DNA of 43,040 nucleotides from Dehalococcoidia bacterium. Its GTDB lineage: Bacteria; Chloroflexota; Dehalococcoidia; Tepidiformales; Tepidiformaceae. The stretch covers positions 1-43,040 of the forward strand of contig JAGQGZ010000005.1 in assembly GCA_020432105.1 (NCBI GenBank). The letters run 5' to 3'. The notes beneath the pieces were generated by a model. That model was not told where the DNA came from, made no database searches, and saw only the letters and a list, made by a program, of their open reading frames with translations. The position numbers and the translations under genes were made by a program. Shown in pieces: positions 7,801 through 31,856 of the stretch; positions within the stretch are counted from its first letter, which is position 1; each line of letters begins with the position of its first letter.

Positions 7801-9219
7801 GAGTTGGGGCATGCCTCGGACACGACGTTGACCAGGTCGGCCGCTGGGAAGTTGGCCGTCGAGGGGGTGGACGTGCTCCTCAATGGCGGTGCGCTCGGCA
7901 CCCCGGCGTCGGGCACGCTCACCAACTGCACGATTCCCGTATCGGGCATTGCTGCCTCGACATCGACGGCACTCGGGGTCGGCTCGGTGGAACTCGGCCA
8001 CGCCTCCGACACGACGTTGTCGAGAAGCGCAGCCGGGAAACTCGCCGTCGAAGGCGTGGACGTTGTCCTCGCAACCGGGCAGCAAACCGTCGCCGACAAA
8101 ACACTCACCGCCCCGAAAATCGTCGACGGCGGCTACATCGCCGACGCGAACGGTGTCAGCGCACTGACCTTCTACACCACTGCCAGTGCGGTCAACTACC
8201 TGTATGTGTCGAACGCCGCTGCGGGCGGCTACCCCACCATCGGCGTCGGCGGCTCGGACAGTGACATCGGCTACTCCTTCACCCCTAAAGGCAACGGGGC
8301 CGTCCAGATCTACGAGAACGCCGGGCAATCTGTTGCCACGCTAGCCGCGAACGGCACCGCCGACGACGTAGACCTGGACCTGACATCGAAAGGCGACGGC
8401 ACAGTCACCGCCAACGGCGACACCGTCCTCACCGAAACCGCAACAGCGACAATCACCGGGAAAACGATCTCCGGCGCGGACAACACGCTCACCAACATCC
8501 CGCTGGCGTCGTTGGATTCCGACGACTACGCCGACACGGCCACCGCCTCCACGCTCGCAGTTCGGGACGCGAACGCGAATCTGCACGCCGACAACTTCAT
8601 GCGCGGCGCGGAGTCAACCGCCACCTCGGCCGGAACGAAGTCGTTGACCATCGACTCGCCCGGCGTGCAGATATTTACCGGGTCGACAACCCACACAGTG
8701 CAGCTGCCCACTACCGGGGTGAAAGCCGGGATGCAGTGGTTCATCACGAACCAGTCATCCGGGGTGCTGACGATCCAATCGTCCAGTGGGGGCAACCTAT
8801 GGACATTCGGGACCAACAGGACGGGCACCTTCACCGCACTTGTTGACACGCCGACCGCGGCCACCGACTGGTCGGCCATCTCCGGCTCTGCGGGCAAGAA
8901 CCCCATCATCGGCGCGTCACTGTTCTTCACCGGCACCGACTTCACCAGTTTCACGTTCCCATCCAGTTCGGGCACTGTGGTGTGCCAGGGCGGTTCCACA
9001 ATCGAGGTCGGGCACGCCTCCGATACCACCCTCTCCCGTTCCGCTGCAGGCGTTTTGGCGGTGGAAGGCAACCCGGTCAGTGTCCGCGTGTCCGTGCCGT
9101 CGACATCAGCGACGGCAGGTAAGCCCGGCTACTGGGCGGCTGACGCCAGCTACATCTACACCTACACCGGGGACGGCTCCACCCATACCTGGGTACGGGC
9201 GGCGGCGGCTTCATGGTGA
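4825..9219 (+). CDS. Tail fibre / tailspike with pectate-lyase-like right-handed beta-helix
   Basis: This 1464-residue protein is the largest complete gene in the window; it starts with GTG inside the previous gene. Residues 1-180 form a tail-attachment-like region. Two copies of an ITDST-GRAVVTA-AAAR-AI module follow, flanking a GGYAPLDETGLIDAAYLPSYV linker commonly seen in phage fibres. From about residue 329 (NFADYGACDGVTNDRAAF) to about 840 lies a pectate-lyase-superfamily parallel beta-helix, with repeating coils of the VVSGNRI / VTISDNII type. The C-terminal third holds internal repeats (GTPASGTLTNCT, ELGHASDTTL) and ends in a beta-rich tip with TWVRAAAASW. A polysaccharide-binding or -degrading role at the host surface is inferred. 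Confidence 0.88.
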   Translation: MSSPTYFTVVGDFKAIIADSEDAGADPDHLPLLGTVTFTPLINAGDLILATQASPRPVGFLGTPISGYIDTDGVLKMRSTAFGDYGYTPVRLLADTALLELDGDLWYAVSFSNMSYGGKFVTINGFNFQAPTSDTAVNLITVAPGPGFRASGVNRIAPGAVRLDGGELIFSFGGVDIPDPVALEPTFLSTEITDSTSVGRAVVTAVDEAAARTAIGAESAAMKGASGGYAPLDETGLIDAAYLPSYVDDVLSYADLAAFPESGSAGKIYVAVDTGDAYRWSGSAYVRISDRVTASGITDSTATGRAVVTAASATAARDAISAVGKGELVVNFADYGACDGVTNDRAAFSTALSVLSSAGGGTLLLPPTDIAITLNALPTFNVPANTRIVGTPGATTLLLSSSNNAAYVAFGGSAGNNVTFEGLRLVRNTDCTLMFFEPGPHSGFHIRNCILDGQRSTLPTYDVHGVSFNNNSGAKSNFTMRGCTVTGVKWGLLQANSITADYDNILIDDCTFTANYADDLGFNAPESDMTNVTVSNCRFVNNMAAATPAGYGVGLAHVVNAVVRDCYFENYYNEAIHLEDWCANVVVSGNRIVTCGTDPSTATYTDRDRGGIVITSGCSDVVVSGNTLDHSANTNSLHGIVVKELPAATTPGGRSDIPPFRVTISDNIIQCGSDYQGMWITKLEDGVVRGNTIVGDGSVTGGAYSGNDGFGMKISGGSCVIDANNVSGFRYGISAPFIDIHNDDAGSWVGKQGLANRGVVGGNLLSDCYIGVVAVPSGRLNISGNTMANCVRPMVVGENNYIAEPCTVVGNFAAGCTFPFEVGPALVVEVPSGASTVTTGSGKSVTVIDHMRKMPIGTVIQFSGGGVLTLTSAATKSKLSIESGSPYTLTGDVSGASITAGEWGITTNLAHSTTAAMNQIRITSNTDAESNGDFRAVTDTTVATLVNKTLTAPTLTAPVLGTPASGTLTNCTGLPISGLAASTSTAVGVGSVELGHASDTTLTRSAAGKLAVEGVDVLLNGGALGTPASGTLTNCTIPVSGIAASTSTALGVGSVELGHASDTTLSRSAAGKLAVEGVDVVLATGQQTVADKTLTAPKIVDGGYIADANGVSALTFYTTASAVNYLYVSNAAAGGYPTIGVGGSDSDIGYSFTPKGNGAVQIYENAGQSVATLAANGTADDVDLDLTSKGDGTVTANGDTVLTETATATITGKTISGADNTLTNIPLASLDSDDYADTATASTLAVRDANANLHADNFMRGAESTATSAGTKSLTIDSPGVQIFTGSTTHTVQLPTTGVKAGMQWFITNQSSGVLTIQSSSGGNLWTFGTNRTGTFTALVDTPTAATDWSAISGSAGKNPIIGASLFFTGTDFTSFTFPSSSGTVVCQGGSTIEVGHASDTTLSRSAAGVLAVEGNPVSVRVSVPSTSATAGKPGYWAADASYIYTYTGDGSTHTWVRAAAASW
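7702..8070 (+). repeat. Two 192-bp repeat units coding tail-fibre shaft repeats
   Basis: Two units offset by exactly 192 bases (64 residues), starting at 7702 and 7894, encode near-identical blocks: LGTPASGTLTNCT, then an IS-G-AAST-STA-GVGSVELGHASDTTL block, then SAAGKLAVEGVDV. The DNA is diverged at third positions while the protein is conserved, so the repeat is under protein-level selection. A third partial unit (HASDTTLSRSAAG) is at about 9007-9070 near the C-terminus. Confidence 0.8.
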
Positions 9220-20254: not shown

Positions 20255-21096
20255 GCGCTTCGCTGTGCAGCAAGGGATGTGGCCGCCGAGCGGTCAGGCG
20301 CGGCTGGTGCTCATCGCACTACAACCAGCAACGCGAACGGATGATCGCCTACGGCCGATGGGAGGTCGTCTACGTCGACGCCGAACCCGTGCGCGCCCAT
20401 GTTCGCCAGTTGCAGTCGGCCGGACTCGGGCTGCGGCGCATCGCCGAACTCGCATCGGTGAACCGCTCCCAGCTGCACACCCTGCTCAATGGGAGGCGGG
20501 AACGCGGAACCGGACCATCCCGCCGGGTGAGCCGCAACATTGCCGCGAAACTCCTCGCGGTCGCCATCCCCGACGCCCCGCACCGGTTCGCGGCCGACCG
20601 CCGCGTCATACCCGCGGTCGGCACAGCGCGCCGACTTCAGGCGCTGGTGGCCATCGGGCACACCCAGTCCTATCTGTGCTCACGGATCGGCGTCACCGCC
20701 CCGAACGGCACCCACCTGTTCGCGGGAAGCCGGCCAGTCACCGCCGCCACCGCGCGACGGGTGGCCGCCCTGTTCGATGAGTTGCAGCTGACCCCAGGCG
20801 ATTCCGCCCGGTCCCGCCATCGCGCCGCCTCCAAAGGCTGGGCGCCGCCGCTGGCGTGGGACGAGGACAGCATCGACGACCCGGCTGCGACACCGAACCT
20901 CGGAGCGGACCTCAAGGGCGGCTTCCTGGACAGGTACGAGGAACTGGTCGACATGGGGCTCACACAGGTTGAGTGCGTAGCCCGAATGGGTGTCGCGCCG
21001 GAGTCGCTTGTGCGGCAGCTCGACCGGTACGGAATCGCGGTATCGGCAGGGCTTCGCAACCTTGAGCGCGAACACCGGAAGCGGATCGCCTCATGA
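20251..21096 (+). CDS. Helix-turn-helix DNA-binding protein with N-terminal Cys motif
   Basis: The product has 281 residues; GTG 20251 in the GTGA overlap is preferred over the upstream in-frame GTG at 20239. The N-terminus CSKGCGRRAVRRGWCSSHY is a Cys4-type motif found in actinophage HTH proteins. HTH-like segments follow: AGLGLRRIAELASVNRSQLH, VTAATARRVAALFDEL, and MGLTQVECVARMGVAPESLV. Repeated HTH units suggest a DNA-binding regulator or replication accessory. The specific target is unknown. Confidence 0.75.
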   Translation: MSASLCSKGCGRRAVRRGWCSSHYNQQRERMIAYGRWEVVYVDAEPVRAHVRQLQSAGLGLRRIAELASVNRSQLHTLLNGRRERGTGPSRRVSRNIAAKLLAVAIPDAPHRFAADRRVIPAVGTARRLQALVAIGHTQSYLCSRIGVTAPNGTHLFAGSRPVTAATARRVAALFDELQLTPGDSARSRHRAASKGWAPPLAWDEDSIDDPAATPNLGADLKGGFLDRYEELVDMGLTQVECVARMGVAPESLVRQLDRYGIAVSAGLRNLEREHRKRIAS

Positions 21097-21263
21097 CCTG
21101 CGCTCTCCCCGGCTGCCGCAACCCCGCCACCGAGGCGGGGGAGATGTGCGCGGCATGCGGGCATTGGCTGCGGTCCGCCACGACTCGGCTGACCGCCGAC
21201 GACATCCGCGCGAGAGACGAATACGTCCAACGGGCATACCAGCAACAAAGGAGCAAGCGATGA
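21093..21263 (+). CDS. Small Cys-rich protein (56 aa)
   Basis: ATG 21093 is in an ATGA overlap. TCALPGCRNPATEAGEMCAA followed by CGHW gives four Cys in a compact zinc-binding pattern. A helical basic end (ARDEYVQRAYQQQRSKR) follows. An AAAGGAG ribosome site for the next gene lies in its 3' end (about 21247-21253). Confidence 0.6.
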   Translation: MTCALPGCRNPATEAGEMCAACGHWLRSATTRLTADDIRARDEYVQRAYQQQRSKR

Positions 21264-21778
21264 GTGAGGAACTGCTCGACCGGATCGCGAATGTCATGGC
21301 CGATACAGCGCAAGCCATGTGCGAATCGTGGGACCGCACCGGCGTCCCACCGTGGCAGGGGGAGTGCGACTTCGGGCCTATCGCCGACGCGGCGCTCCGT
21401 GAACTGGGCCTGTCTCACGCTGGGAGCCAAACGACGAATACCGAACTGAGCGCCCGGATCGCGGCGGTTATGGAAGCGCACGACGTTAACAGCGACTGCC
21501 AGTGCCACGACTACATCACCAACTGGTTTGACCACATGGCCGACGCGATCCTCGCCATGCCCGGTATCGCCGTGGTCGAACTGCCTGAACCGGTCTACGG
21601 GCCAGATGGCGGCGGTCAGTTCGGTTGGGATACCGCCATTTCAACGGTCACGGCAACACCCGACGAGGACGGCTACTGGTCAGTTTGGGATCAGGACTTC
21701 CAGATGGAACCTCACGAGGCCCGTGACCTCGCCGCCGCTCTCCTGGCTGCAGCCGAGTACGCGGAGCGTGACCAGTGA
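21260..21778 (+). CDS. Hypothetical protein, DRIA-paralogue family (copy 1, extended)
   Basis: The product has 172 residues. It starts SEELLDRIANVMADTAQAMC and has a second internal half (SARIAAVMEAHDVNSDCQCH) that repeats the same layout. It ends with ILAMPGIAVVELPEPVYG and AARDLAAALLAAAEYAERDQ-like elements shared with the next gene at DNA level. It looks like the result of tandem duplication of a small domain. Unknown function. Confidence 0.65.
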   Translation: MSEELLDRIANVMADTAQAMCESWDRTGVPPWQGECDFGPIADAALRELGLSHAGSQTTNTELSARIAAVMEAHDVNSDCQCHDYITNWFDHMADAILAMPGIAVVELPEPVYGPDGGGQFGWDTAISTVTATPDEDGYWSVWDQDFQMEPHEARDLAAALLAAAEYAERDQ

Positions 21779-22101
21779 CTGACACCCTGCGCGACCGGAT
21801 CGCGGACATCGTGGCCCACGAGGACCTACCTGGCGCATGGGACACCGCGCTGGCTGCCGCCGACGCGATCCTCGCCCTGCCCGGTATCGCCGTGGTCGAA
21901 CTACCGGAACCGGATCACCATGAGCCTGCCGCCGACGATGTGAACGGCTATGTCGAGTGGCACTACCCGCACGGGAGCATCGCCGTCACTGATGACGGGA
22001 CGATCATGTGGGAGCGCTGGCATATCCACGACCCATCTAGGGTTCGCGCCGCCGCTGCCGCTCTCCTGGCTGCCGCCGACTACGCGGAGCGTGAGCAGTG
22101 A
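21548..22101 (+). repeat. Tandem-duplicated gene segments in paralogous small genes
   Basis: The segment from 21548 (coding ILAMPGIAVVELPEP) recurs at about 21869 (ILALPGIAVVELPEP). The segment at 21737-21778 recurs at 22060-22101 with only a few substitutions, ending in GCGGAGCGTGA(C/G)CAGTGA. The two copies lie in adjacent overlapping genes. The pattern indicates gene duplication in place. Confidence 0.8.
21775..22101 (+). CDS. Hypothetical protein, DRIA-paralogue family (copy 2)
   Basis: The product has 108 residues and GTG 21775 is in a GTGA overlap. It begins TDTLRDRIADIVAHEDLPGA and ends AAAALLAAADYAEREQ. It is a clear paralogue of the preceding protein and of the one at 26101 (SDTLRDRIATVI). 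The central part is rich in Trp, Asp and His (VEWHYPHGSIAVTDDGTIMW), suggestive of a small beta-sheet. Unknown function. Confidence 0.65.
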   Translation: MTDTLRDRIADIVAHEDLPGAWDTALAAADAILALPGIAVVELPEPDHHEPAADDVNGYVEWHYPHGSIAVTDDGTIMWERWHIHDPSRVRAAAAALLAAADYAEREQ

Positions 22102-24511: not shown

Positions 24512-24633
24512 CCGACCCGCGCATCCGGCTGCTGTTCACCCGCGCCCAACTCATCGCGATGCGACGGTGCCCGGACTGCGGGTGGCATCCGCCCACCCAA
24601 GGCCATCACCCCCACTGCCAAGGAGACGCGTGA
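24508..24633 (+). CDS. Small Cys/His protein (41 aa)
   Basis: TTG 24508 is in a TTGA overlap with the previous stop; TGA 24631-24633 overlaps the next GTG. An N-terminal helix FTRAQLIAMRR is followed by CPDCGWHPPTQGHHPHC, a compact zinc-finger-like motif. Function is unknown. Confidence 0.5.
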   Translation: MTDPRIRLLFTRAQLIAMRRCPDCGWHPPTQGHHPHCQGDA

Positions 24634-25031
24634 GACCCGACTGGCACCACCAGGCCGCCTGCCGCGACCACGACCCCGACCTGTGGTTCCCGCGCGCCGG
24701 CCAAAACGAACGCGTCGAACTGGCGCAGTCGATCTGCCGAGCATGCCCCGTCCTCGACCAGTGCCGCGACTGGGTCGACCGACACGACCCGCCCTACGGC
24801 GTCTGGGCCGGACTCACACAGGGCGACCGCGACACCAAACGCGGACACCGCGGCAGCTACCGCTCCGACCCGTGGATCAAAGCCGCCCTCACGCACCGCT
24901 GCGGAACAACAGCCGGCTACGCCAGGCATAGACGTAACGACGAAGAAGCCTGCCAAGCCTGCAAAACCGCCAACACCGAATACAACGCGGAACGCACACG
25001 ACGACGGAGGTCGAGGAAATCCGATGCCTAA
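24630..25031 (+). CDS. WhiB-family transcription factor (second copy)
   Basis: The product has 133 residues and GTG 24630 is in a GTGA overlap. Fe-S cysteines are Cys11 (AACRD), Cys36, Cys39 and Cys45 (CRACPVLDQC), with GVWAGLT as the WhiB turn. A C-terminal CGTTAGYARHRRNDEEACQA region followed by a Cys pair and a basic tail resembles the end of the first WhiB copy. The two are therefore paralogues within one phage, about 4.9 kb apart. Likely a transcription regulator acting on host or phage RNA polymerase. Confidence 0.9.
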   Translation: MRPDWHHQAACRDHDPDLWFPRAGQNERVELAQSICRACPVLDQCRDWVDRHDPPYGVWAGLTQGDRDTKRGHRGSYRSDPWIKAALTHRCGTTAGYARHRRNDEEACQACKTANTEYNAERTRRRRSRKSDA

Positions 25032-25857
25032 TGCCGCCGGAATGATCCGCGAGTCGATATGGCGGGACGAGGACTGGCGCAAGCTGTCGCGCGGCGCCCA
25101 GGCGCTCTACATGCAGCTGCTGTCCCAGAAGGAACTCGACTGCGCCGGACTGCTGCCGCTGCAACCGGTGAAGTGGGCCAAGGGATGTAACGGGCTCACC
25201 GTCGAGGAGGTGTGGGAGCAGCTGGAGGAGTTGCAGACGGCCAGGTTTGTGTTCTTCGACGTGGACACCGACGAGTTGTTAATCAGGACGCATATCCGCA
25301 ACTCGAACGTCATTAAGATCCCGAACTCTCGGGCGTCGGCGATGAGGGCGGCGAAACTGGCGGCTTCTGAGCGGCTTCGGGAGGTGTTGGCGGCCGAGTT
25401 GAGGGCTGCCGGGCGGGACGATTTTGCGCGTACCGCTGAGGAAATCAACCCTTCGGCAACGGTTAGCGAACCGTTAGCTAACGGTTCCGAAATCAACGGT
25501 TCGCTAACGGTTACGGAACCGTTAGCTAACCCACGGGTACTAGGAACGGGTACTAGGAACAGTCACCTTGGTAATTACTCAAGTAGGGAGGGGCGACCCT
25601 CCTGCCCGATTCATCCACAGGGCGACCCCGGCGACGTGAAGTGCCACGGGTGCCGGGCCACGCGGATCTGGGACGAGCAGCACGCCGCCGAGTTGGCCGC
25701 CGACGAGCTGGAGGCCAAGCGCCTCGAACGGGAGGCGGCGAAAGCGGTTGTCGCCGCATGCGGGCTCTGCGACGACGCCGGATGGCTCCTCGGCGCCGAC
25801 GGCCTTCCCTGCGACCCTGCGATGCGCTGCGACCACCAGGAGGCCGCTCATGCCTGA
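25024..25857 (+). CDS. Replication initiator-like protein containing an internal iteron array
   Basis: The product has 277 residues. The N-terminal domain (RESIWRDEDWRKLSRGAQAL, YMQLLSQKELDCAGLLPL) is a winged-helix-like region typical of actinophage DnaD-type/replication-initiation proteins; residues about 55-95 continue it. A flexible linker (about 140-195) is encoded by the repeat array described separately. The C-terminal part has CPIHPQGDPGDVKCHGC and CGLCDDAGW, zinc-ribbon-like Cys pairs, plus a coiled Glu/Lys-rich helix. As in lambda O, the origin may lie inside the initiator gene. Function is inferred from N-terminal similarity and the embedded repeats. Confidence 0.7.
   Translation: MPNAAGMIRESIWRDEDWRKLSRGAQALYMQLLSQKELDCAGLLPLQPVKWAKGCNGLTVEEVWEQLEELQTARFVFFDVDTDELLIRTHIRNSNVIKIPNSRASAMRAAKLAASERLREVLAAELRAAGRDDFARTAEEINPSATVSEPLANGSEINGSLTVTEPLANPRVLGTGTRNSHLGNYSSREGRPSCPIHPQGDPGDVKCHGCRATRIWDEQHAAELAADELEAKRLEREAAKAVVAACGLCDDAGWLLGADGLPCDPAMRCDHQEAAHA
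25458..25523 (+). repeat. Iteron-like array of six AACGGTT heptamers (putative origin)
   Basis: AACGGTT or its complement AACCGTT starts at 25458, 25469 (inverted), 25480, 25495, 25506 and 25517 (inverted). Spacing is 11, 11, 15, 11 and 11 bases, about one helical turn. AACCGTTAGCTAACGGTT (25469-25486) is a perfect 18-base palindrome. The array lies inside the replication-initiator-like gene and encodes its linker. Origin function is inferred. Confidence 0.7.
25533..25558 (+). repeat. Tandem 13-bp repeat beside the iteron array
   Basis: ACGGGTACTAGGA occurs twice head to tail (25533-25545 and 25546-25558). It is followed by an unusually AT-rich stretch for this genome, GGTAATTACTCAAGTA (25570-25585), a candidate unwinding segment. 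Confidence 0.65.
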
Positions 25858-31688: not shown

Positions 31689-31856
31689 GCCCCTGACCTG
31701 CGGAAACGCCAAGCCACTGACCAGCGACGATGCCGAGGCCCTGACCTGCGGAAACGGGGGCGGCACCCCCCGCCCCCGGGGTTGCCTCCGCTACTCGGGG
31801 CTTAGGCGCGCCGAGGGGGAGCCCCGAAAAACGACCAAGAAAGGAGCTGACCGCTA
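31689..31856. other. Candidate cos region between HNH and terminase genes
   Basis: This is a 168-base gene-free gap. It contains the 18-base direct repeat CCCTGACCTGCGGAAACG at 31691-31708 and 31739-31756, a very GC-rich run at 31756-31782, and an inverted repeat TCGGGGCT (31795-31802)/AGCCCCGA (31820-31827) with GGCGCGCC in its loop. AAGGAG at 31841-31846 serves the terminase small subunit. Terminase-adjacent, repeat-rich DNA is where cos normally lies; the cut site itself is not visible. Confidence 0.55.
31691..31756 (+). repeat. 18-bp direct repeat near candidate cos, 14 bp shared with attP side
   Basis: CCCTGACCTGCGGAAACG occurs at 31691-31708 and 31739-31756, 48 bases apart. Its 14-base core GACCTGCGGAAACG occurs once more at 12294-12307 beside the integrase set. 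Confidence 0.8.

Follow-up and report, generated by a model that had tools for sequence, protein, structure and literature searches.

Known and proposed replication origins inside initiator genes

The placement of a replication origin inside the gene of its own initiator is an already known principle. In lambda and other lambdoid phages, the ori iterons lie in the middle of gene O with an AT-rich region adjacent to them (PMC7466680). In the Bacillus phage SPP1, oriL is located in gene 38, a replisome organizer gene whose own product binds direct repeats within it; an AT-rich element at which the DNA unwinds lies beside them (PMC6316719). In the RepA_N plasmid pSK41, the N-terminal winged-helix domain of Rep binds Rep boxes situated centrally in rep, the ori-encoded middle of the protein is a linker, and the C-terminal domain interacts with the primase of the host (PMC5703833). 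For the mycobacteriophage RepA replicons of Miko and Jeeves, it has been suggested that replication may start either ahead of repA or inside it, as in lambda, and no repeated motifs were identified in the region examined (Wetzel et al. 2020, PMC7157519). Here we describe an array of phased heptamers within the replication initiator gene of a phage-like contig of 43,040 nucleotides (JAGQGZ010000005.1, contig C355 of a draft genome, hereafter the window), and we propose that the phage very probably starts its DNA replication at positions 25447-25591, inside the initiator gene, where the heptamers would be bound by the initiator that the gene encodes.

Repeated sites that lie inside the initiator gene and are conserved as DNA, as in origin-in-initiator-gene replicons of the lambda, SPP1 and pSK41 type, are found at this locus. 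As in lambda, the repeats of the window sit inside the initiator gene; however, the lambda iterons are four imperfect inverted repeats of ~19 bp, whereas the window has 7-bp units one helical turn apart, in mixed orientation and without a strong AT tract. The comparison with lambda ori made in an earlier reading of the sequence alone (the first-pass annotation) is valid as architecture. Membership of the lambda O family was not found: no Pfam family, RepA_N (PF06970) included, was matched by the initiator, in a search that involved no direct comparison with lambda O. The likeness to SPP1 oriL, repeats inside the initiator gene beside a second element, is likewise architectural, with no sequence similarity shown, and SPP1 differs in encoding a helicase and a loader and in having a second origin, oriR, none of which was seen in the window. 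With pSK41 the window shares an N-terminal winged helix, a candidate ori in the linker and RepA_N-type structures among its weak PDB fold matches, but its initiator has no Pfam RepA_N match, and box sequence, spacing and hosts differ. Like Miko and Jeeves, the window represents an actinophage with a RepA-like initiator, Miko RepA being likened by description only.

Heptamer array and its conservation in the initiator family

The six AACGGTT/AACCGTT heptamers of the first-pass annotation are present at all six claimed starts, as is the 18-bp perfect palindrome at 25469-25486, but the list was incomplete since it overlooked an AACCCTT at 25447 (Table 1). The six AACSGTT units follow one another in steps of 11, 11, 15, 11 and 11 bp. 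AACSGTT occurs 11 times in the whole window, a count reached by none of 100 dinucleotide shuffles, and free synonymous recoding of the linker peptide gives on average 0.32 copies (at most 4 in 20,000) against the 6 observed. The codon phases of the seven heptamers are 0, 2, 1, 0, 0, 2 and 1. The departure from the GC-rich surroundings is also real, with 52% GC in the array versus 64% for the gene, and the 100-bp stretch at 25485 is among the contig's lowest 0.05% in GC. Downstream of unit 7 there may be a degenerate eighth unit; AACCCACGGGT also comes after the array in the closest relative, L037.

The gene product matches the profile phrog_3171, 'replication initiation protein', over its full length (E 1.2e-56, aa 1-274), and its homologues are annotated as RepA-like replication initiators. 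The protein is laid out as an N-terminal winged-helix domain (aa 10-141), a linker (~aa 142-190) and a C-terminal zinc-finger/long-helix region. In the AlphaFold2 (AF2) model, the predicted local distance difference test score (pLDDT) exceeds 90 for most of aa 10-141 (mean 93.5), with the helix and strand order of a winged helix, and falls below 50 at aa 154-188, where the linker is predicted to be disordered. Since the heptamer units encode ~aa 142-168, and the tract and second element described below ~aa 170-190, the candidate origin covers this linker, in agreement with where the array had been placed before. Compared with the viral structure library BFVD, the N domain resembles proteins named replisome organizers (E 1e-4 to 9e-4); in the PDB it gave weak fold matches only, of the RepA_N type (4pt7, 5kbj, 4pql) and DnaD (2v79). 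In these model-based comparisons, the fold appears nearer to phage replisome organizers, RepA_N and DnaD than to the lambda O family. PDB sequence searches with the initiator were empty, and Foldseek was uninformative with the full-length model, the N domain alone being informative mainly in the viral library.

Homologues were collected by tblastn, with 82 phage records returned for the window protein and 300 for its homologue from Arthrobacter phage Mufasa8. In viral and genome contigs, a single-protein query found no close relatives and an alignment query was needed, which gave 153 IMG/VR relatives, 80 of them kept. The resulting 108 loci were reduced to 60 non-redundant homologues at 90% identity. 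No plasmid relatives were found, and the only full-length match among 196 host-related genomes was the window's own contig, three others being partial and weak. When heptamers of the class AASSSTT are pooled on either strand, the 60 genes contain 198 of them (150 AACCCTT and 39 AACCGTT), against 53.7 +/- 6.7 and a maximum of 74 in 200 shuffles by synonymous codon permutation. Three lengths dominate the gaps between heptamers: 49 of 11 bp were observed (0.83 expected), 46 of 12 bp (3.7 expected) and 13 of 8 bp (0.26 expected). Heptamer density is 3.43/kb in the initiator genes versus 0.28/kb elsewhere, 12 times that of neighbouring DNA, and the pooled codon phases are 81/66/51. In a stricter test, which asked for clustering of one exact heptamer within 160 bp, 31 of the 60 homologues exceed all 60 of their own synonymous shuffles. 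Across the family the heptamers sit just after the N-terminal winged-helix domain, as in the window, typically 420-600 bp into the gene (~420-500 bp in the window), and other words take the same place and pitch in some phages, namely GGGGTCA in Eyre, GATACCC in L115 and JonJames, and AGACCCT in King2. Heptamer spacing is thus kept across related phages despite linker divergence, the check that the first-pass annotation had proposed. As a separate observation, residue 99 of the initiator is Ile or Tyr in six AACCGTT users from two lineages versus mostly Gln or Ser in 25 AACCCTT users, a post hoc comparison that involves few events.

One may argue that the repeats are a by-product of a repetitive disordered linker (NPSxT, EPL, GEGEG), produced by protein-level repeats or slippage, in that the linkers are repetitive, 12 bp is a multiple of 3 and some arrays (Eyre, P1312) resemble local duplications; but steps of 11 and 8 bp shift the codon phase and so place identical DNA in each of the three reading frames, the counts lie far above those of synonymous shuffles, and arrays continue past the stop codon in Arthrobacter phages. 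In Mufasa8, the initiator gene ends at +487 and 12 heptamers, mostly in 12-bp steps, occupy +490 to +760, versus 0.08 on average in base-shuffled DNA. They form two separate arrays of 5 and 7 units with 12-bp steps, ~140 bp apart (L011 3466-3726). An annotated low-complexity gene, gene 50, overlaps them, and to call the array non-coding depends on doubting that annotation; whatever the status of gene 50, the array does not encode the initiator linker. King2 and LeeroyJ also have arrays of their own words past the initiator stop codon. The linker explanation is hence largely refuted, and we hold it to be very improbable. Together, the excess over synonymous shuffles, the use of all three phases and the arrays past the stop codon argue that selection on the array acts at the level of DNA, not protein.

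Short-period tract and second conserved element

The head-to-tail 13-mer at 25533-25558 is present as first described, but it is rather the window phage's form of a short-period tract that lies between array and second element in most array-bearing relatives, often G-rich and with a period of 6. A DnaA-trio reading of this tract was set aside, as Mufasa8, King2 and LeeroyJ lack a 3-nt period by eye. Similarly, the AT-rich tract at 25570-25585 is a real site but only the core of the larger conserved element at 25563-25591. A four-sequence model of this element also matched L079, L076 and L032 with E values of 8e-7 to 6e-3, in each case directly behind the array. After iteration the element was found in 8 homologues, always just after the array, with E values of 7e-14 to 1e-8 that come from a model built partly on those homologues, L079, L076 and L032 having matched before inclusion. 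Its codon phase is 2 in the window, 1 in six relatives and 0 in ZiggyZoo, and the encoded peptides differ; like the array, the element is maintained as DNA and not as protein. It may be the place where the DNA unwinds or where loading occurs. A resembling sequence, recognized by eye only, is inverted in the Whack/Kimberlium lineage (GGTTACGTAAGTACGGAAGGTCACC); DNA-level selection is less certain there because the encoded GYVS is conserved too.

The presence of this element after the array also bears on the possibility that the array is an operator, through which the initiator itself, by its winged helix, or a different regulator of the phage controls transcription of the early operon, with the origin elsewhere. 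We consider this unlikely: beyond the second element, the array lies deep inside the gene, downstream of any promoter of the initiator gene, and the annotation of the family is that of replication initiators. Phased heptamers would nevertheless suit a regulator too, a WhiB-like gene is directly upstream of the initiator gene, and the GC-skew minimum is elsewhere. Origin function and autoregulation do not exclude each other.

Table 1. Features of the candidate origin and its gene (positions in the window)
Feature	Position	Strand	Remarks
Replication initiator gene, 277 aa	25024..25857	+	phrog_3171 profile, AF2, homologue annotations
Heptamer unit 1, AACCCTT	25447..25453	+	11 bp before the first unit listed by the first-pass annotation; form commonest among relatives
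Heptamer units 2-7: AACGGTT 25458, AACCGTT 25469, AACGGTT 25480, AACGGTT 25495, AACGGTT 25506, AACCGTT 25517	25458..25523	+	above all synonymous shuffles
18-bp perfect palindrome AACCGTTAGCTAACGGTT	25469..25486		built of two heptamers
34-bp imperfect palindrome	25498..25531		30/34
Putative degenerate eighth unit AACCCAC	25528..25534	+	11 bp after unit 7
Tandem 13-mer ACGGGTACTAGGA x2, head-to-tail	25533..25558	+	counterpart of the relatives' short-period, usually G-rich tract
Second conserved element TCACCTTGGTAATTACTCAAGTAGGGAGG	25563..25591	+	same DNA in different codon phases; sole copy in the window

Phage context, proposed mechanism and implications

A scan of open reading frames (ORFs) identifies the window as a phage-like contig with terminase, portal, capsid, tail, lysis and RecE/RecT genes. 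Tail genes close to both contig ends (1-900 and 42400-43040) point to a phage genome that is circularly permuted and nearly complete; the two ends were not found to overlap. Because no phage helicase, primase or polymerase is among the ORFs scanned, the phage probably uses the host replisome. ParA and ParB are also absent from these ORFs, which speaks against a reading in which the phage is an extrachromosomal prophage and the array serves it for partition (parS-like) or incompatibility instead of as the origin. The location of the array inside the initiator gene, with which it recurs in phages that infect several genera, speaks against it too. Miko and other phages with RepA do have parS direct repeats beside repA (PMC7157519), yet we give this explanation very little weight.

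Some observations weigh against an origin at this site. About half of the homologues have no clear exact-heptamer array, and in the clade L106-L113 and L116 the repeats are weak or absent by the criteria used; moreover, the homologues share ancestry, so the counts are of non-independent events. The best PDB fold match of the N domain has an E value of 0.075, the AT content of the second element is moderate at 56%, and the cumulative GC-skew minimum of the window is at 31.8 kb, not 25.5 kb.

Several features of the contig are recorded for their own sake. Cumulative GC skew peaks at 7875 (~7.9 kb) and reaches its minimum at 31796, close to where the terminase/capsid genes begin. The WhiB-like gene (24567-25031) overlaps the start of the initiator gene, and Mycobacterium phage Argie and its relatives also have a WhiB-like gene annotated beside the initiator gene. 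A gene run at 28391-31431 matches kinase (phrog_3297), methyltransferase/glycosyltransferase (phrog_9361/22332), galactosyltransferase (phrog_1721) and glucosyltransferase (phrog_854) families and is possibly a DNA or surface modification cassette. Two adjoining ORFs at 20990-22101 match the same DNA-methyltransferase-like families (phrog_1546, 1573, 2060), either a tandem duplication or a split gene. No Rfam match was obtained.

Returning to the proposed origin, we infer origin function for the array, as well as binding of the heptamers by the initiator, DNA opening at the second element and replisome recruitment, by analogy with lambda, SPP1 and pSK41. The N-terminal winged-helix domain would bind the heptamers, whose 11-bp step would set all initiator copies on the same side of the DNA in an ordered nucleoprotein array. 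This array would open the neighbouring low-GC segment at 25533-25591, which comprises the short-period tract and the conserved element, and the C-terminal region would recruit the host replisome. Far more tentatively, these loci could represent a distinct and widespread class of actinophage origin, in which heptamers of either orientation occur once per helical turn. The winged-helix initiators would then build an unbroken filament along one face of the DNA, and this filament would lead into both a short-period tract with strand asymmetry and a conserved element for loading. In such a class, the orientation of the element would flip with the strand bias of the tract between lineages and set which strand is opened, and a few initiator residues, such as position 99, would determine specificity for AACCCTT versus AACCGTT.

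The site class, the helical-turn spacing and the second element appear new, no description of these heptamer arrays having been found in the open-access literature, with subscription journals outside the scope of the search. For most actinophages, no origin has to our knowledge been mapped. Sequenced phages with this initiator family number in the hundreds and infect Mycobacterium, Gordonia, Rhodococcus, Arthrobacter and other hosts; an origin signature recognizable in them would make many origins predictable from sequence and would offer testable small replicons. In addition, the initiators and their sites would provide a natural series of pairs in which to follow the evolution of binding specificity when a site lies inside the gene of its own binder.
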